This document shows, one piece after another, positions 1-9,947 of a stretch of 64,000 nt of DNA. The stretch covers positions 1 through 64,000 of the forward strand of contig DAIDMQ010000009.1 in assembly GCA_027448945.1 (NCBI GenBank), written 5' to 3'. The notes beneath the pieces are model-generated. The model made no database searches. It saw only the letters and a list, made by a program, of their open reading frames with translations, and was not told the DNA's origin. This DNA comes from Gallionellaceae bacterium (lineage in GTDB: Bacteria > Pseudomonadota > Gammaproteobacteria > Burkholderiales > Gallionellaceae). The position numbers were made by a program, and so were the translations under genes. The first letter of the stretch is position 1. Each line of letters starts with the position of its first letter.

Positions 1-75
1 CTGTCCAGACTGAACTCGCTTGACTGACAATTCTCTGAATTCGGGGGTATATGCCTGCTTCGGTATCTTCTTCAT
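1..75 (-). CDS. IS3-family transposase OrfA, N-terminal fragment (runs off the left edge)
   Basis: Manual translation of the minus strand from position 75 gives MKKIPKQAYTPEFRELSVKRVQSGQ, the typical N-terminus of IS3-family OrfA HTH proteins. A GGAG Shine-Dalgarno lies just upstream. Not in the ORF track because it is truncated. Confidence 0.75.
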   Translation of the reverse strand, partial: MKKIPKQAYTPEFRELSVKRVQSGQ

Positions 76-108
76 CTTCATCTCCAATATGTGCGTAATT
101 TTACGTCA
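1..108 (-). mobile_element. Left end of an IS3-family insertion sequence (truncated by the window edge)
   Basis: OrfA start plus a candidate terminal sequence 5'-TGACGTAAAATTACGCAC (minus strand, from 108), which begins with TG as IS3-family ends usually do. The exact boundary is inferred. Confidence 0.55.
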
Positions 109-385
109 CCATTGGAAGACGATTTTTCGGGGGAAGGTCACTAACGCCTTTCTTGACAACGTAGACACCGATCATCAAGCCAGCTACAGCTAAAATGCCG
201 AGAGACACGTCAGCAAAGCTGATACCAGTGGTCAGGTCTGCCAATGTTGCGGGAGCAACAGCGAAAGAAGGAGTTGCAGCAACCAAAGCTGTACCACCTA
301 CGGTAATTTTGACGAGAGTGCCGTCAACATAATCATAAGTTGCAGCAGCTGCGCGTTGACCCATTTGTCTAGCTTTTTTAAACAT
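101..385 (-). CDS. Inovirus major coat-like protein (signal peptide plus single TM helix)
   Basis: 94 aa: hydrophobic leader ending ..TPSFA, short acidic/amphipathic segment, TM helix LGILAVAGLMIGVYVV and basic KK tail. This is the filamentous-phage coat architecture. Last codons and stop come from the adjacent IS end. Confidence 0.6.
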   Translation of the reverse strand: MFKKARQMGQRAAAATYDYVDGTLVKITVGGTALVAATPSFAVAPATLADLTTGISFADVSLGILAVAGLMIGVYVVKKGVSDLPPKNRLPMVT

Positions 386-456
386 GATTCACCTCACTTA
401 AGTTTTGGTATACGTCCGGCATACCAGCGGATTGCAGGGTGTCTATCCCTGAATTC

Positions 457-762
457 TCAAAGTCGCTTAATCGCTGACAAAATCATTCCAGCGTTCTTTG
501 CAATCAAATAACAGCCAAGCGAAAACGTCAGCGCAAAGGACCAGTAAGATGCGGCAAGAACCGCGTCAAATGGGGCACTTGTAACAGCAACCACACCAGA
601 TGCAGCGGCACCTGATCCAGCAATAGCCGCATTTGTATATGTAGCAAGTTCAGATGTTGTGAAAAGTGAAAAACCTGTACCGCAATCTGCCATGCCTTGT
701 GTGTAACTTTGAACAGTTGCCCAGATAGCAGGAGCAGAAAGTGTTACGCAGGTGAGAGCCAT
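457..762 (-). CDS. Inovirus small membrane/minor coat-like protein
   Basis: 101 aa with two hydrophobic segments; RBS AAGTGAGGTGA matches that of the coat gene; sits in the phage gene cluster. Confidence 0.4.
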   Translation of the reverse strand: MALTCVTLSAPAIWATVQSYTQGMADCGTGFSLFTTSELATYTNAAIAGSGAAASGVVAVTSAPFDAVLAASYWSFALTFSLGCYLIAKNAGMILSAIKRL

Positions 763-942
763 TTAAATCACCTCACTTAGAGAGTTTGTATATGAAGAAT
801 CAATGGTTACTTCATACCCTTGGCGACGATATGAATCACGTACCGCTTGAGCGATGCGAATATCAGTAGTCCTACGAATAAGAACGCCTTCGATCCTTAC
901 GAAGTACTCAGATAAAAGAGGTGATAAGACGTAATGGATCAT
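763..942 (-). CDS. Small inovirus protein (59 aa) missed by the ORF track
   Basis: Manual translation: MIHYVLSPLLSEYFVRIEGVLIRRTTDIRIAQAVRDSYRRQGYEVTIDSSYTNSLSEVI*. Its start overlaps the upstream stop (ATGA at 939-942) and its stop abuts the next ATG (TAAATG). Confidence 0.6.
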   Translation of the reverse strand: MIHYVLSPLLSEYFVRIEGVLIRRTTDIRIAQAVRDSYRRQGYEVTIDSSYTNSLSEVI

Positions 943-1181
943 GCTGACCTCAACTTTAAGCCAGAATCAGCAGTCCATTCGAAAGCTTCAATAGACCTTA
1001 TAAGACGTAATTTTTGAAAATCTCTTTCACCTTGTTTGAGAAGAGAGAGAGTTCGTAGACAATCTGGACAATCACAAACATCACCACCACAAGTACATAG
1101 TGAGCAGCCATCATTCATTAGATTTGAATTATCAAAAACCAATTCAGCTAAGCAATCCTGACACATAGTGGAATGTTTCAT
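939..1181 (-). CDS. Cys-rich small phage protein
   Basis: 80 aa, CxxC-rich (MCQDC, CSLCTCGGDVCDCPDC). Start overlaps the rep stop as ATGA. Confidence 0.5.
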   Translation of the reverse strand: MKHSTMCQDCLAELVFDNSNLMNDGCSLCTCGGDVCDCPDCLRTLSLLKQGERDFQKLRLIRSIEAFEWTADSGLKLRSA

Positions 1182-2245
1182 GCCGCAATCCTGATGTCAG
1201 ACCATGAAAGCACAGGCTCATTCAGCACTAAAGATTTGCGACGAAACGGCAAAACCACACCCGCGCATAAATCGGCACTTGAGATACCAGCCGCTTTCAA
1301 AAATGCTTGATGCCGCATAAACGTTGCCTTCGGCATTGTGTTTTTTACTTGGTCATAGCCGATTGTTTTAATCAAAGCCCATGTGCGATGGGCGGCCAGC
1401 GCTTGACCTTTGGTAGGACAAACTTTTTCAAGTTCAAGTAATAGTGTTCCCATATCGTGTACCTCCACGTCGCCGCCACCAATCAGCGAATTAAAGAATT
1501 TATGGTGGATTTCGGTTAACTCATAAGGCGTTAAGGTGTGCCAATCATCGCGGTCTTCATAGCGACGAAACCAACGCGCACCGAGCTTGAGCTCAAGTCG
1601 AAGGAGATTGTCAGCAAGATCCAGCGTTTCATCATCGATGATGATGTCGCCACGACGCGACAACATGCGCAAATGCGCGCCCTTGTGATATGCCTTACCG
1701 CATTGCAGGTCAGACGACGGATTCCAATAAACCGTGTCACCACCTTTTTTGTCAGAGTTGGTGCGGCGACGTGGTGCATCGGTCCCAAGCAACAAGCGCA
1801 GTCCTTGCTTAACCTGAGCGGCATTACCCATATCGTAATTCGCGGTCACATCGAGGCGACGACATTGCCAGTTATCCCAATTCGGCAAGATTGCATCGAG
1901 TGCAAGACCTGCACGCTCAATCAGCACTTCCGCGCAATGCTGGATGTAGAGCGAACCGAAAACATTCAAGCCATCGTTCTCAATGCTTGAAGGCGATGCG
2001 CCGATGGTGAGATAACGCTGAGACTGTCCATCGGCAGTGATAGACCAGTACAAGCCAGGTGCATCAGAACGCAGCTTGTCGATGTCTAGCGCGTGCTTGC
2101 GCCATTTTTCAACACCGTTTGAATCTACGCAGACAGTCATGCCCATGCAGCTCAAGATACGCTCCATGAGATTTTTACCAAGAAGACCTTGTGGATCATC
2201 AGGATGATTAAGCTTGATGCGGAGAGTGAGCCAGTCGATTAGCAT
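1178..2245 (-). CDS. Phage replication initiation protein (inovirus gpII/RstA-like)
   Basis: 355 aa, IDWLTLRIKL N-terminus and RLDVTANYD / LRLELKLGARW segments resembling phage replication-initiation proteins; position in an inovirus cluster. Confidence 0.65.
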   Translation of the reverse strand: MLIDWLTLRIKLNHPDDPQGLLGKNLMERILSCMGMTVCVDSNGVEKWRKHALDIDKLRSDAPGLYWSITADGQSQRYLTIGASPSSIENDGLNVFGSLYIQHCAEVLIERAGLALDAILPNWDNWQCRRLDVTANYDMGNAAQVKQGLRLLLGTDAPRRRTNSDKKGGDTVYWNPSSDLQCGKAYHKGAHLRMLSRRGDIIIDDETLDLADNLLRLELKLGARWFRRYEDRDDWHTLTPYELTEIHHKFFNSLIGGGDVEVHDMGTLLLELEKVCPTKGQALAAHRTWALIKTIGYDQVKNTMPKATFMRHQAFLKAAGISSADLCAGVVLPFRRKSLVLNEPVLSWSDIRIAA

Positions 2246-2772
2246 AATTCAGACTCACATTTTTCTTCTGACCAAGCGCCGGATGAAAATGTCTCGTCCA
2301 TGGCACTTTGTCCGCCCGTTTTTTGGTGTTTAGTCTCACCCATGGGACTTTGTCCGGGTATTACATACGTACCCGGAGATTTTTCGCCGTCTTCCGCTCC
2401 GTGCTCGCTACGCTGCGCGCGGTGCTCATTTGGCGAAAATTCGTTCAGGGCAACGCCTTCACCCTCGAAAGGCTGTTCAGTCGCAGAAACACGACTGGAA
2501 GGCGTTGCCTTGAACGAACTAACAGGGCGAAGCGTGACGTAACCGAAGTTGACGGTAATCATGCGTCGAGTAGACGCATCCCAAAAATGCCCCATACAAG
2601 TGGACGAAAGAGTACGTCCGCTTGCACGAGATTCTTGATAGTCAGCACGATCAGAGGCGGCGCGGTTAATGACAGCAGAAGCTATTGCTCCACCGCCTTT
2701 AAGTGGGTTCAAATTCTGCCGAAAAAATCTATCCGGCAGAACTGGCCTTGGTGCTTTGGCAAGGGTCGCCAT
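2239..2772 (-). CDS. Hypothetical phage ORF containing repeats and a large hairpin
   Basis: 177 aa open frame between the SSB-like gene and rep. The C-terminal half contains direct and inverted repeats and may be functional DNA rather than (or as well as) coding. Confidence 0.35.
   Translation of the reverse strand: MATLAKAPRPVLPDRFFRQNLNPLKGGGAIASAVINRAASDRADYQESRASGRTLSSTCMGHFWDASTRRMITVNFGYVTLRPVSSFKATPSSRVSATEQPFEGEGVALNEFSPNEHRAQRSEHGAEDGEKSPGTYVIPGQSPMGETKHQKTGGQSAMDETFSSGAWSEEKCESELC
2291..2356. repeat. Pair of 24-bp direct repeats, 42 bp apart
   Basis: gtctcgtccatggcactttgtccg (2291-2314) and gtctcacccatgggactttgtccg (2333-2356), 21/24 identical. Confidence 0.85.
2440..2518. repeat. 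Large imperfect inverted repeat (hairpin/cruciform candidate)
   Basis: Left arm ttcgttcagggcaacgccttc (2440-2460) and right arm gaaggcgttgccttgaacgaa (2498-2518), complementary with one mismatch; nested cagtcg/cgactg stem (2478-2483/2492-2497). Confidence 0.85.
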
Positions 2773-2778
2773 GACCGT

Positions 2779-3114
2779 TTAGGCTTTTGGTTGAGATGGA
2801 ACGTGCGAAATGATTGTCGGCAGACAATCGCGAAGAATGTAGAGACCGGGCTTTCGAGTTTCAGGGTCTACCCACATACCGACAGGAACAGTTACTTCTT
2901 TGCCTATTGCTTTTTTGTACTGTTCGCCAAGTGCACGAACGTTGAAATCTTTCAGCACCAATTTCGTGCCGCTTTCCTGTTTACCTTTTCCAACAACTGG
3001 CTCTTCGTACTGAAGCTGAACTTTGTGTCCAGCTTCAGTAATTTCACCAGTCTTTTGGTCTTTAAATTCGTTGGTAGGAAATACGTTTAAAACTTTACCT
3101 GTGAGCGTAAGCAT
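2779..3114 (-). CDS. Phage ssDNA-binding protein (gpV-like)
   Basis: 111 aa, small OB-fold-like composition (MLTLTGKVLNVFPTNEFKDQKTGEITEAGHKVQLQYEEP...), located upstream of the replication initiator as in many inoviruses. Confidence 0.5.
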   Translation of the reverse strand: MLTLTGKVLNVFPTNEFKDQKTGEITEAGHKVQLQYEEPVVGKGKQESGTKLVLKDFNVRALGEQYKKAIGKEVTVPVGMWVDPETRKPGLYILRDCLPTIISHVPSQPKA

Positions 3115-3174
3115 TTTAATTCCTTTCGAGGGTTAAACCAGTGTCCGACTGGCGGCAGTGATACAAAATCATTT

Positions 3175-3399
3175 TCATAGATGAAATGCTTTATCTAGTG
3201 CCATCTTGTTGAGCAATGCGACGTTGATCAGGGTGTACTTGCCTATTGAATAAGTCGGGACATAGCCCTTCGAAATCCAACCTCTCAAAACACCCTCTTC
3301 AATGCCAGAAAGTTCAGCAAAACGCTTAGGCGAAATCAAAGGCAATGCCATTGCGGCGGCATTAAATTGACTAGCTTCTGATGGTGCGTTCATAATCAA
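3175..3399 (-). CDS. Small HTH (MerR/excisionase-like) DNA-binding protein
   Basis: 74 aa: ISPKRFAELSGIEEGVLRGWISKGYVPTYSIGKYTLINV, a winged-HTH Xis/MerR-like pattern. Confidence 0.5.
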   Translation of the reverse strand: MIMNAPSEASQFNAAAMALPLISPKRFAELSGIEEGVLRGWISKGYVPTYSIGKYTLINVALLNKMALDKAFHL

Positions 3400-3428
3400 G
3401 AACCTTTCGTTACGTTGCTATACAGCAC

Positions 3429-3457
3429 TATAAGACAGTTGAAGTATAAGACAGTTG
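3429..3457. promoter_or_regulatory. Tandem operator-like repeats in the divergent phage promoter region
   Basis: Two exact copies of tataagacagttg at 3429-3441 and 3445-3457 between the divergent 74-aa HTH and XRE repressor genes. Confidence 0.55.
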
Positions 3458-3482
3458 CGATATAACCATAAACGGGATTTAT

Positions 3483-3758
3483 GTGTCAAGCCCTATAGGA
3501 AAAAAAATTAGAAACGTTCGCGAAGCCCTTGGTATCGGGAGGCAGGAATTCGTCGATAAAACAGGAATTCCAAAAGGAACAATCATCGGGATAGAACAAG
3601 GCTTACGCGAACCAAAAGCAGGAGTGCTAATTGCAATAGCACAAGCATGGCCAGAGTACGCAGCCTATCTTTTGACAGACGAAATTAACGTAAAACAGAG
3701 AGACCCCGAAGCCGAAGAATTAGCTAAGGAGTTGCCGATAGCGAAGAAGGCGAGCTAA
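3483..3758 (+). CDS. XRE-family phage repressor
   Basis: 91 aa, IRNVREALGIGRQEFVDKTGIPKGTIIGIEQGLREPK is a canonical HTH_XRE. Confidence 0.7.
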   Translation: MSSPIGKKIRNVREALGIGRQEFVDKTGIPKGTIIGIEQGLREPKAGVLIAIAQAWPEYAAYLLTDEINVKQRDPEAEELAKELPIAKKAS

Positions 3759-3792
3759 TCGCACAGCAAGTATTGAGGCGCTGGTTTAGGAG

Positions 3793-4320
3793 GTGAAACA
3801 GATGTCAATTGATGAACGCGATTACTACTACAATCCAAAAGAATTTCGAGACGAAAAAATTCCAGAACCAGAATTTCAATCATCTACCAATAGCAATTAT
3901 CCGAGACAAACGGCAAGTCAAGAAGTCATCAAAAAAATGATGCTTTATCTTGCTTCAATCGCAGTAATTATCATCGTCGTAATCGTTGCGATGCAGCTGA
4001 TAAACAAGGTTGCAAATAACACGCTTAATGGAATGAAAAAAAATCTCATCGCACAAGAGCAACAACGTCAGCAAGACATCAAAATTCAAACTGCAATTCG
4101 ACAACAATCAATCGAAACTCAAGCCGCAACACAACAGCAGAAACTTGTTAAAGATACCGCCTTGCAGCAAAGAATCGAAACAGCAAAACCAAGGTTTGAA
4201 CGTGTACTTGTCAAAGGCAAATCAGCAAAGGAATGTGGCGCAGCAGGCATCATCACCAATCAAACTATTCTGTGTAAAAACGACCACTACGAGATAGTTC
4301 AAATCAATGGCAATCAGTAA
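3793..4320 (+). CDS. Single-pass membrane protein, unknown function
   Basis: 175 aa, TM segment LYLASIAVIIIVVIVAMQLI followed by a Gln-rich coiled-coil-like region; preceded by an AGGAGGTG RBS; overlaps the integrase start. Confidence 0.55.
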   Translation: MKQMSIDERDYYYNPKEFRDEKIPEPEFQSSTNSNYPRQTASQEVIKKMMLYLASIAVIIIVVIVAMQLINKVANNTLNGMKKNLIAQEQQRQQDIKIQTAIRQQSIETQAATQQQKLVKDTALQQRIETAKPRFERVLVKGKSAKECGAAGIITNQTILCKNDHYEIVQINGNQ

Positions 4321-5335
4321 AGCCGCATCAGGATGGTTGGTTGACATACAGCCAGCAGGCCGAGGCGGTAAACGGTTTAGAAAAACACTATCCACCAAAG
4401 CCGAGGCGTTAGCCTGGGAGACTTGGATTAAGGCGCAAATCCAGCAGTCACCAGACTGGAAACCAGCGAAAGGCGATAGTCGCAAATTATCCGAGCTGGT
4501 GGATCTGTGGCACAAGCTACACGGCATCAATCTACGCGCCGAAAAAAACACTTTGTCGAGATTGAAACTGCTATGCGAAGCACTAGGTAATCCAATCGCC
4601 GAGCAGATGAAACCTGACACCTTCGCGGAGTATCGCGCACTTCGTTTAAAGAACGGAATCTCACCTAACAACCTGAATCGTGAACACGCTTATCTACGCG
4701 CAGTATTCAACGAACTTATACGGCTTGGACAGTGGACAACAGAAAATCCACTCACCAAGTTGCGCCAGTTCAAAATCACAGAACGCGAGTTGTCGTTTTT
4801 GTCATTAAATGAAATCAAGCTACTACTGGATACCTTGAAAGAAGGACGCAGCCGTGATGCCTGGTTAATTGCGCAAATCTGCCTTGCGACAGGAGCGCGC
4901 TGGAGTGAGGCTGAAGGATTGAGATCATCACAAGTCAGAAATTGCGCATTGCATTTTACCGGGACGAAGTCTGGCAAAAATCGCAGTGTACCTATATCAG
5001 ATGAATTGATTGCTTTGCTCGATGCGCACCTAGTCGAAAAATGCGGAGAAGAAAAAACAGTCGCTACGCGGTTTTTTATATACGGCTATGCCGCATTCAG
5101 AGAGGCGGTAGATAAATGCGGTATCGAGCTACCCAAAGGTCAAATGACGCATGTATTGCGCCACACCTTCGCTTCGCACTTCATCATGGCAGGCGGCAAT
5201 ATTTTAGTGTTACAGCGCATCCTGGGCCACAGCAGCTTAACCATGACAATGCGCTACGCACACCTTGCACCTGAACATCTACAGGAAGCAAAAACCTTCA
5301 ATCCACTGACCAAGCTGAACGAGTCAACAAACTGA
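4307..5335 (+). CDS. Tyrosine recombinase/phage integrase
   Basis: Catalytic motifs ATGARWSEAEGL, HVLRHTFASH, LGHSSLTMTMRYAHL. Confidence 0.9.
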   Translation: MAISKAASGWLVDIQPAGRGGKRFRKTLSTKAEALAWETWIKAQIQQSPDWKPAKGDSRKLSELVDLWHKLHGINLRAEKNTLSRLKLLCEALGNPIAEQMKPDTFAEYRALRLKNGISPNNLNREHAYLRAVFNELIRLGQWTTENPLTKLRQFKITERELSFLSLNEIKLLLDTLKEGRSRDAWLIAQICLATGARWSEAEGLRSSQVRNCALHFTGTKSGKNRSVPISDELIALLDAHLVEKCGEEKTVATRFFIYGYAAFREAVDKCGIELPKGQMTHVLRHTFASHFIMAGGNILVLQRILGHSSLTMTMRYAHLAPEHLQEAKTFNPLTKLNESTN

Positions 5336-5374
5336 CAACTAAAATCCGTTGACAGATTGTTGACGGCGTAAAAA

Positions 5375-5404
5375 AAGGAGCTGCGAAAAACTCCGCAACT
5401 CCTT
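5375..5404 (-). terminator. Rho-independent terminator downstream of tRNA-Phe (minus strand)
   Basis: Arms aaggagctgcg/cgcaactcctt with one mismatch, followed on the minus strand by a T tract (cctttttt). Confidence 0.6.
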
Positions 5405-5410
5405 GATATT

Positions 5411-5486
5411 TGGTGGCCCGGGGCGGAATCGAACCACCGACACAAGGATTTTCAATCCTCTGCTCTACCGACTGAGCTACCAGGCC
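5411..5486 (-). tRNA. tRNA-Phe(GAA)
   Basis: Minus strand GGCCTGGTAGCTCAGTCGGTAGAGCAGAGGATTGAAAATCCTTGTGTCGGTGGTTCGATTCCGCCCCGGGCCACCA; full cloverleaf; CCA encoded. Confidence 0.95.
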
Positions 5487-5688
5487 ATTTTCTACATTTC
5501 ACTAACTGTATGATGCCGTTTCGCGAAGTCGCGCATTATACCGAGAAGTGCAAAAAGCACAAATGTAGTTTGTGATTTATTTTTACCTGCCGGAATGCAA
5601 ACGTTCGATGATGCTTTGTTGGGACTAAAGTGCGGCTATAGCATACAATTTTCCGCTGTTCCTTAATTTATCCTGCCCCGACTAGAAC

Positions 5689-6951
5689 ATGTCCAATCTG
5701 ACCCGCCGTGATTTCCGCACACTTGCGCTTGCTGCCTTGGGTGGTGCGCTGGAGTTTTACGACTTCATCATCTTCGTCTTCTTCGCCGTGGTCATCGGCA
5801 AGTTGTTCTTCCCGGCAGACATGCCGGATTGGTTACGCCAATTACAGACCTTTGGCATCTTCGCGGCGGGTTATCTGGCGCGACCGTTGGGCGGTATCGT
5901 GATGGCCCACTTTGGCGACTTGCTGGGTCGCAAGCGTATGTTCACCCTGAGCATTTTTCTGATGTCAGTGCCTACGCTGGCGATAGGTTTGATGCCCACC
6001 TATGCCAGCATCGGTATCTGGGCACCGATATTATTGTTGGCATTACGTGTGATGCAGGGTGCTGCTATAGGGGGTGAGGTGCCGGGGGCGTGGGTGTTCG
6101 TCTCCGAGCATGTACCGGCACGTCATGTGGGTTTCGCCTGTGGCACGCTGACTGCCGGTTTGACCGGCGGCATCTTGCTGGGTTCGCTGGTCGCGACGGC
6201 GGTGAATCGCGCCTATAGTCCGGAGGCTTTGTTGAGTGAGGGTTGGCGCGTGCCTTTCATCATTGGTGGAATATTCGGTTTCATTTCAGTGTGGTTGCGC
6301 CAGTGGTTGCACGAGACGCCGGTATTTCAGGAGATGCAAGCACGCCAGGCTTTGGCGAATGAGTTGCCGCTCAAGCAGGTGATACGCGCGCACAAGCCGG
6401 CCATCGTAGAGACCATGTTGATGACTTGGTTGTTATCGGCGGCCATCGTGGTGATGATCTTGATGACACCGACCCTGGTGCAGAAGCTCTACGCGATTCC
6501 GGCAACCGCCGCTTTGCAGGCGAACAGCATCGCGACGCTGTTTCTGAGTCTGGGTTGTGTGGTGTTCGGTGCTCTGGCTGACAGATATGGTGCGGGACGT
6601 GTGTTGATGGTCGGCTGTGCGATGTTGGGTATCAGTGCCATGGTCTTCTATCAGCAAATGGCGGTGGCACCGCAGAATATAGACATCTTATATGCGGTGA
6701 CGGGCTTTTGCGTGGGGGTGATAGGGGTGGTGCCCAGCACCGCAGTCCGAGCCTTCCCGCCGGAAGTGCGTTTTTCCGGATTGTCCTTTTCTTATAACGT
6801 GGCGTATGCGGTGTTCGGCGGATTGACCCCTATCATGGTCAGTATGATGTTGCCGCTGGACCGTATGGCGCCCGCGCATTATGTGTTGGCGCTGAGCCTG
6901 GTGGGGATAGGCATAGGGGCGACTTTGCGCAAGCGCGAGCGGGTCGTTTAG
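5689..6951 (+). CDS. MFS transporter (metabolite:H+ symporter, ProP/ShiA-like)
   Basis: 420 aa, 12-TM MFS pattern with GGALEFYDF, ARPLGGIVMAHFGDLLGRKR. Confidence 0.8.
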   Translation: MSNLTRRDFRTLALAALGGALEFYDFIIFVFFAVVIGKLFFPADMPDWLRQLQTFGIFAAGYLARPLGGIVMAHFGDLLGRKRMFTLSIFLMSVPTLAIGLMPTYASIGIWAPILLLALRVMQGAAIGGEVPGAWVFVSEHVPARHVGFACGTLTAGLTGGILLGSLVATAVNRAYSPEALLSEGWRVPFIIGGIFGFISVWLRQWLHETPVFQEMQARQALANELPLKQVIRAHKPAIVETMLMTWLLSAAIVVMILMTPTLVQKLYAIPATAALQANSIATLFLSLGCVVFGALADRYGAGRVLMVGCAMLGISAMVFYQQMAVAPQNIDILYAVTGFCVGVIGVVPSTAVRAFPPEVRFSGLSFSYNVAYAVFGGLTPIMVSMMLPLDRMAPAHYVLALSLVGIGIGATLRKRERVV

Positions 6952-8357: not shown

Positions 8358-9947
8358 ATGAATGACAAAGTGAGTGCTCAGCAATATACGGGTGACTACT
8401 GGCGTTCGCTGAGCTATTACAACGTATATCGTTTTGCACTGGCCCTGTTGTTTGTCCTGCTGGCGGGCGTAGTCGGTACACGTTTGTCGCTGGGCGCCGA
8501 GAACTTGCTGGTGTTCTATTCGGTCAGCGTGTTCTATCTTGCCGCAGCCCTGGTTTCCTTCATCCTGTTGCGTATCCGCAAGCCGCGCTTCACTTTGCAA
8601 CTCGCCTTGCAAGTGTGCGGGGACATTCTGGTATTGCCGATACTTTCCTACGCCAGTGGCGGTGTACAAAGCAACATTGGTTTATTGCTACTGATTTCTT
8701 TGGCAGCCGCAGGTTTGACCAGTCGCGGTCGTATCACTCTGTTTTTTGCCGCGCTTGCGAGTATCGCAACGCTGCTGGTGCAGTCTTATGCAGCCTTGCA
8801 TGACGAAGCGTCAGCGGCACAATTCATACAAGTAGGTTTGCAGTGTGCCGCATATTTTGCGGTGGCATGGATGGCGCACAGTCTGGCGAAATATGCGGTG
8901 GACAGTCAGTTGCTGGCGCAACGACGAGGTAGAGATTTGGTGAGTATGTCCGAGGCCAATCGTTTGGTGATGCGCGATATGCAGGACGGCATACTGGTGG
9001 TAGATGCCAACGGGGTGATTATGCAAATGAATCCCAGCGCCTCGCGTTTGTTGCGTCATACGCCCATCTCGGGCGAAACGATGTCCCAGACTTTCCCTAT
9101 TCTGTACGGACAATATGCGATCTGGAAGATGCATGGCAGGAGCAGTCGAGATACCTTGCAACTGGACGTCGGGATGCAAGCACGTCTGCGATTTGTTGCC
9201 GTGGAGCGCGATGCCGCGCATGGTGTGGTGATCTTCCTGGAGGATATGCAACGGGTTCAGGCAGAGGCACAGCAATTTAAGCTGGCGGCCTTGGGGCGGT
9301 TGACGGCCAATATCGCCCACGAGGTACGCAACCCGCTTTCGGCGATTAGTTATGCCACTGAACTTATGCAAGACGGGAATATAGACCCTCAACAACAGCG
9401 ATTGTTGAAGATTGTGTTGGACAATACACAGCGTATTAATCGTATCGTGCACGATGTCATGCAACTCAATCGCCGTGACCGTGCCGAGCCCGAGCGCTTT
9501 GATTTGCATGAATTGATGCAGACTTTCGTTGAGGAATTTATACGTTCTGAAAAGCTGGAAAGTGGCGTGGTCGTGCTGTTGGCGGCGGGAGCTCATCAAG
9601 TGGATTTTGATCGCGGACATTTGCGTCAAGTGCTGTGTAATCTGTGCGGGAATGCATTGCGTTATGGTCAGGGTAAACAGGGCAGTCTGATGCTGATACT
9701 GGGAAATGAAGATGAGTCGGTGGTGTTGGATGTGCAGGATGACGGTGCCGGCATCCCCGCCGAATATAGCGGCCGATTGTTCGAGCCTTTCTTTACTACT
9801 GCCGCACAGGGTACTGGGCTGGGCTTATATATCGCCAAGGAGTTGTGCGAGGCCAATGGTGCCCGCTTGAATTATCGGGCACGGGAAGGACATGCGGGTG
9901 CATGCTTCCGTATCACTTTTGGAGAGTTGTATGAGTCCGACGAGTAA
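8358..9947 (+). CDS. pilS: Sensor histidine kinase PilS-like
   Basis: TM N-terminus, PAS, H-box AHEVRNPLSAISYA, N/G boxes NALRYG, DDGAGIP, GTGLGLYIAKEL; followed by pilR-like gene. Confidence 0.85.
   Translation: MNDKVSAQQYTGDYWRSLSYYNVYRFALALLFVLLAGVVGTRLSLGAENLLVFYSVSVFYLAAALVSFILLRIRKPRFTLQLALQVCGDILVLPILSYASGGVQSNIGLLLLISLAAAGLTSRGRITLFFAALASIATLLVQSYAALHDEASAAQFIQVGLQCAAYFAVAWMAHSLAKYAVDSQLLAQRRGRDLVSMSEANRLVMRDMQDGILVVDANGVIMQMNPSASRLLRHTPISGETMSQTFPILYGQYAIWKMHGRSSRDTLQLDVGMQARLRFVAVERDAAHGVVIFLEDMQRVQAEAQQFKLAALGRLTANIAHEVRNPLSAISYATELMQDGNIDPQQQRLLKIVLDNTQRINRIVHDVMQLNRRDRAEPERFDLHELMQTFVEEFIRSEKLESGVVVLLAAGAHQVDFDRGHLRQVLCNLCGNALRYGQGKQGSLMLILGNEDESVVLDVQDDGAGIPAEYSGRLFEPFFTTAAQGTGLGLYIAKELCEANGARLNYRAREGHAGACFRITFGELYESDE

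Follow-up and report, generated by a model that had tools for sequence, protein, structure and literature searches.

The window, which is the whole stretch of 64,000 nucleotides that was analysed, starts at a contig end that lies within an inovirus prophage, in the genome of a member of the Gallionellaceae (iron bacteria). The element belongs to the Inoviridae (Tubulavirales): it encodes a G2P-type Rep and a coat-like protein, and its relatives carry Zot and secretin, which supports its identification as an inovirus. The matches to Zot (PF05707) and Secretin (PF00263) come from the relatives, the phage of the window itself being cut at the contig end. The genes and features discussed here are listed in Table 1. 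A direct repeat, TATAAGACAGTTG, is found at window positions 3429-3460, between the excisionase-like and repressor genes, and probably represents repressor operators.

Table 1. Genes and sequence features of the inovirus prophage in the window
Feature	Position	Strand	Basis or remark
Rep, 355 aa, G2P / f1 gpII family	1178-2245	-	PF05144, E 1.8e-15; PF05155 weak; phrog_702
ORF2, 177 aa, bears the hairpin and the origin stem	2239-2772	-	Stop TGCTAA across the Rep ATG
SSB-like gene, 111 aa	2779-3114	-	Predicted OB fold
Coat-like gene		-	phrog_2186
Excisionase-like gene		-	In the window prophage
Repressor-like gene, then tyrosine integrase		+	Adjoining tRNA-Phe
Y-shaped hairpin	2440-2518	- (coding: mRNA / presumed viral strand)	Folds; arm covariation in 8 phages
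Inner hairpin branch	2478-2497	-	Fold; 6-bp stem 2478-2483/2492-2497, 8-nt loop 2484-2491
Anti-RBS motif in the 17-nt bulge, 5'-CCTTTCGAGGGT-3'	2461-2472	-	Exact reverse complement of 3122-3133
Target: RBS of the SSB-like gene, 5'-ACCCTCGAAAGG-3'	3122-3133	-	19 to 8 nt before the ATG
Small hairpin CCAGT CGGAC ACTGG in the leader, immediately 5' of the target	3138-3152	-	Also in L002 and L012
Plus-origin candidate: iterons and stem CCGGGTA/TACCCGG	2291-2376	-	Sequence and relatives; iterons 2291-2314 and 2333-2356, stem 2354-2376

The 111-aa protein has no match in Pfam (PF02303 included) and no sequence match in the PDB. It was modelled with AlphaFold2 (pLDDT 82, pTM 0.70), and the model has an OB-like order of strands. 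Its best structural matches are the OB folds of PriB and SSB, with E about 0.01, together with viral SSBs, and these matches support its assignment as a putative SSB. In more distant relatives (for example L029) the same slot holds a gpV-type protein (PF02303). Within the Gallionellaceae inovirus clade, the gpV-type SSB is replaced by an OB-fold SSB-like family that lacks a Pfam match.

The hairpin lies inside ORF2, with the SSB-like gene on one side and the origin stem on the other; ORF2 in turn adjoins Rep. An earlier note on this DNA had described it as a two-tier structure, with 21-bp arms containing one mismatch that enclose a 6-bp stem, an 8-nt loop and a 17-nt bulge, and this geometry was confirmed exactly. 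The arms of the closing stem (2440-2460 and 2498-2518, 21 nt each) are 95% complementary, and the bulge is one-sided, occupying 2461-2477. Both strands were folded as ssDNA, and both gave structures far better than shuffled sequences, with -29.6 kcal/mol (z -6.6) for the plus strand and -30.0 kcal/mol (z -7.3) for the minus strand; none of 200 dinucleotide shuffles folded as well. As RNA, the hairpin of the minus (coding) strand folds with -48.7 kcal/mol (z -6.3). In most folds the bulge is itself partly paired, in a weak mini-hairpin of 3-5 bp, so that the overall shape is a Y or three-way junction. No intrinsic terminator (a GC-rich stem with a T run) was called at 2440-2518, and a terminator reading was rejected on this ground. 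When positions 1-6000 of the window were searched with Rfam covariance models, only tRNA reached the gathering score, and the hairpin has no Rfam family.

Relatives of the phage were collected by searches with Rep, which yielded L002, L004/L007, L005/L008 and L010-L016. L010, L011 and L025 have the sequence of L007 in the hairpin region, and L016 is cut by a contig end. The distinct members of the clade number eight, namely the window phage, L002, L007, L008, L012, L013, L014 and L015. Two of the relatives lie in Gallionellaceae/Gallionellales genomes, and no source other than IMG/VR contigs and genomes of Gallionellaceae yielded members of the clade. A tblastn search of 50,697 phage records gave no match to Rep, and likewise none to the SSB. 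Among 369 genomes of the class, the 16-mer of the origin was present in the window itself only; as a query against viral contigs it was useful, but it also brought four or five unrelated chance hits. The SSB profile found nothing beyond the window in 399 genomes of the phylum and 399 of the order, and single-sequence searches with the Rep of L008 and the SSB of L068 gave nothing relevant. L072 is an unrelated phage.

In every one of the eight clade members a Y-shaped hairpin follows the SSB-like gene and precedes the origin stem, its sequence differing considerably from phage to phage (z -1.7 to -6.2 as DNA and -2.6 to -7.1 as RNA, L008 being the weakest). The inner hairpin branch differs among the relatives in both length and sequence. 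In the closing stem, the 11 inner pairs of the eight phages comprise 87 standard pairs out of 88, counted on a hand-made alignment (a MAFFT alignment shifted two rows), and most columns contain two to four types of pair. There are 40,320 ways to assign the 3' arms to the 5' arms, and only the true assignment reaches 87. G-T pairs occur seven times in the closing stem on the coding strand and once on the other, and it is therefore the coding strand that folds and is under selection. The more distant L044 and L056, which have gpV-type SSBs, show a weaker hairpin at this spot that lacks the complementarity described below, and the hairpin may thus have had another role first. In L047, L051 and L052 there is almost no space between the SSB gene and the origin stem, and a hairpin here is therefore not obligatory in the wider group.

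The function proposed for the hairpin in the earlier note was that of a packaging signal or a strand origin. A packaging signal of the f1 type is required in cis for assembly and is recognised by pVII/pIX. A minus-strand origin primed by RNA polymerase is an ssDNA promoter hairpin that gives rise to the primer RNA. A plus-strand origin for a G2P-type Rep would have a nick site together with iterons of that Rep. The features expected of a Rep-type plus origin, namely candidate iterons and a strictly conserved stem, fall outside the hairpin, and the candidate plus-strand origin is a separate element (Table 1), which speaks against the hairpin in that capacity. Within this candidate, TATGTAATACCCGGAC is conserved in the relatives. 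The origin stem CCGGGTACGTATGTAATACCCGG and the iterons GGACAAAGTNCCATGG are almost invariant in the clade, lie within ORF2 and are read as PGxYVIPGQ. In L007 the origin stem recurs in inverted orientation, together with an iteron remnant, at about 9844-9890 and some 1.4 kb from the first copy. The inverted copy adjoins genes that were not seen in the other phages, and is possibly a scar of recombination or insertion.

The bulge of the hairpin contains the exact reverse complement of the ribosome-binding site (RBS) of the SSB-like gene. The target includes the Shine-Dalgarno-like sequence GAAAGG, and in the window it lies 660 nt upstream of the bulge motif, in the same transcriptional direction. 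Across the phages the distance from RBS to bulge is about 450-680 nt, with the RBS upstream. In place of the small hairpin in the leader, other relatives show different hairpins or none clearly. The match between RBS and bulge is 12 nt long in the window, 13 in L002, 11 in L012, 12 in L007, and 10 in both L014 and L015. In these six phages its offset is constant (-19/-20 to -8 before the start), and the partner always lies in the 3' bulge. For comparison, other 36-nt windows from the same phages were examined, in which an equally long match was found in 0 of 302 for the window, 0 of 361 for L002, 0 of 257 for L012, 4 of 400 for L007, 2 of 261 for L014 and 4 of 299 for L015. The longest exact matches are those of the cognate leader/bulge pairs, and in every sequence searched a given motif is present a single time per orientation. 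The net pairing energy was estimated as -4.9 to -11.9 kcal/mol after subtraction of opening costs and with the long-loop penalty left out; it is about -10 to -12 in four phages and a modest -4.9 in L014 and L015.

The link between RBS and bulge holds in all seven testable phages of the clade, at the same place and in four sequence versions: CCCTCGAAAGG in the window, L002 and L012, CCACGAAAGG in L007, CCCAGAAAGG in L014 and L015, and CCGTGAAAGG in the genome of L008. The complementarity covaries, in that all four Watson-Crick pairs occur at one pairing position and three at the position after it. The covariation score was 0.244, compared with 0.078 for shuffled pairings, of which none of 500 scored as high; the sample consists of eight distinct phages with four motif classes, and two to three columns carry the covariation. 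The CCTTTC half of the motif is invariant, being complementary to a Shine-Dalgarno sequence as well. In relatives whose SSB is of another kind (L044, L047, L049, L050, L053, L054, L056 and L024) the matches are only 5-7 nt long, which is the chance level, and therefore the pairing and this type of SSB go together.

L008 provided a prediction that could be checked. Its contig begins between SSB and Rep, and the bulge of its hairpin reads CCTTTCACGG. A leader of CCGTGAAAGG was predicted from this hairpin alone, and the prediction was recorded before the SSB gene of L008 was found. The gene was located with the SSB-family profile on another contig of the same genome (G117:C7). Its leader is ...CTAACCCGTGAAAGGTAAAAATCATG, which matches the prediction exactly. 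The four free bases were what this comparison tested, CC among them being common to all, and GAAAGG itself is invariant.

ORF2 is open in all seven phages in which it is readable, and four of them, namely the window phage, L002, L007 and L012, share a conserved N-terminal part (for example the FWD motif). Both observations would suit an ordinary coding region, in which the repeats stem from the amino-acid sequence of ORF2. However, dN/dS is 0.37-0.70 for ORF2 compared with 0.03-0.12 for SSB and Rep, the latter range being from non-saturated pairs, and synonymous differences are fewer in ORF2 (for L014/L015, pS is 0.17 compared with 0.34 and 0.27 in the neighbouring genes). The reading frame of the bulge motif varies, being CCT TTC GAG in the window and CTT TCG AGG in the others, and the arms carry compensatory changes. 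The open frame has another explanation in coupling to Rep: the ORF2 stop TGCTAA overlaps the Rep ATG (2239-2245 in the window) in seven phages, while ORF2 ranges from 75 to about 185 aa in length, which suggests that the frame is kept open for translational coupling. A purely coding origin of the repeats is therefore very improbable and was rejected, given the weak constraint on ORF2 and the reduced synonymous change. The weak protein constraint, the smaller number of synonymous changes and the different frames of the motif indicate that the constraint acts mainly on nucleotides. The view of the earlier note that the structure matters rather than the 177-aa protein is supported by these results: the hairpin is kept in all eight phages with covarying arms, so that neither its loss in close relatives nor coding constraint without compensatory changes was found.

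Within the SSB-ORF2-Rep operon, the hairpin is probably a structured RNA element whose bulge would pair over a long range with the RBS of the SSB gene and close it. The covarying closing stem and the inner hairpin would serve to present a short bulge complementary to the RBS. Pairing would hide the Shine-Dalgarno sequence and stop translation of SSB, the two partners most likely belonging to one mRNA molecule. Because ORF2 starts beside the stop of SSB and its end overlaps the start of Rep, ribosomes passing through ORF2 would melt the hairpin, and the SSB site would then stay open. The pairing could in this way form a traffic-sensitive switch on SSB and, via coupling, also on Rep. Three observations suggest action within the SSB-ORF2-Rep message: both partners are in sense orientation, the overlap with the RBS is exact, and the coding strand is the one that folds. 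That the element acts as RNA, in cis and repressively is what we infer from the sequences. The proposal of the earlier note was thus retained as far as a nucleic-acid structure is concerned, while a packaging or origin role is unsupported in the form in which it was put, the bulge pointing to control at the level of RNA. A dual function, in which the hairpin has an additional role in DNA as a packaging signal or minus-strand origin, is a distinct though tentative possibility.

The viral ssDNA is assumed to be identical in sequence to the mRNA, and sequence cannot separate pairing of RNA from pairing of ssDNA. The hairpin might act only as viral-strand DNA, as a packaging signal of the f1 kind or a minus-strand origin, with an incidental match to the RBS. 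In its order of hairpin, plus-origin stem and Rep the locus is similar to the intergenic region of f1, and the hairpin shares with the f1/M13 packaging signal its length, its imperfect pairing and its place close to the origin, here on the strand presumed to be viral. The fold of that (coding) strand is the preferred one, the long stem is stable as DNA, and the weaker hairpins of L044 and L056 occupy the same place in phages with gpV-type SSBs. In f1, pV leaves the packaging hairpin exposed, and the tip proteins recognise it (PMC10175506). However, the Y shape and the conserved bulge complementary to the SSB RBS are unlike the f1/M13 signal, and in M13 the longest match between the gene V leader and the whole intergenic region is 7 nt, which is at the chance level. 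An exclusive role in viral DNA leaves unexplained both the exact, covarying match to the RBS in its four versions and the confirmed prediction, and the phages with almost no room for a hairpin (L047, L051 and L052) also speak against it. We consider it unlikely.

Pairing might also occur at the level of viral ssDNA, such that the exposed genomic hairpin binds the RBS of the SSB mRNA or holds two parts of the ssDNA together. The bulge would in the former case be an ssDNA antisense to the SSB mRNA and would tie SSB synthesis to the state of replication or packaging, and the hairpin could also be the packaging or minus-strand start. The identical sequence assumed for viral strand and mRNA is compatible with this, as is the finding that the f1 packaging hairpin is the part of the genome that stays free of SSB (PMC10175506). 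Against it, more free ssDNA should demand more SSB and not less, and the overlap with the Shine-Dalgarno sequence is most simply explained by translational control of the mRNA itself, so that pairing of this kind, the antisense form included, is doubtful. A shared duplex-DNA operator was considered too, in which the two places are sites, in opposite orientation, for one phage or host protein whose specificity the pair tracks. Binding of a protein would likewise account for matching sequences in the two locations. The motif is near-palindromic, and repressor type and motif class are partly correlated (the window phage and L002 share both). The site lies exactly on the Shine-Dalgarno sequence, however, and not on a promoter, and the operator-like palindromes of L007, L014, L015 and L068 are found elsewhere in the leader and are unlike the motif. 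The SSBs of L002 and L007 are 85% identical, yet their motifs differ, which speaks against a site that tracks the specificity of the SSB itself. A duplex-DNA site would moreover have no need of the covarying hairpin in whose bulge the partner always lies. This explanation was judged less likely and is in our view quite improbable.

In MS2, pairing with a distant stretch inside a coding region keeps a downstream start site closed, and it opens when ribosomes pass. RNA phages of the MS2 type are known for translational coupling and for interactions over long distances (PMC9894550). The arrangement proposed here resembles theirs in that an RBS would be closed by a distant stretch of coding region in the same polycistronic message, and could be opened by the passage of ribosomes. 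It differs in that the genome is DNA, that the closing element lies downstream of its target gene and in the bulge of a branched hairpin, and that the effect is proposed from sequence. In phage T4, gene 32 (SSB) is under autogenous control through an mRNA pseudoknot, bound by the SSB protein near its own start (PMC535899). Both cases would involve translational control of a phage SSB gene through RNA structure, but here a distant hairpin would pair with the RBS and no protein is implicated. As indicated by references cited in the same source, the gene V protein of f1/M13 represses gene II at translation, which links the SSB level with Rep synthesis (PMC535899). There the SSB protein represses the Rep mRNA, whereas here an RNA or ssDNA element would target the SSB gene. 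A search of open-licence papers found no report of a contact between a hairpin and an RBS in inoviruses.

If this interpretation is correct, a filamentous DNA phage would control its SSB by a long-range nucleic-acid contact, located beside the origin and inside a coupling frame. SSB is a key switch protein, which in f1 decides between replicating and packaging. Such a contact in a DNA phage would parallel the long-distance interactions known from RNA phages, and it offers a concrete pair of sites that can be tested by swapping. For conserved hairpins in intergenic-like regions of inoviruses, position alone is insufficient to call them packaging signals. Additional simple hairpins are present in ORF2 upstream of the Y-shaped hairpin, at about 2593-2620 in the window, 2657-2745 in L002, 908-950 in L012 and 835-880 in L014. 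Their sequences differ among the relatives, and they are alternative candidates for the packaging signal or minus-strand origin.
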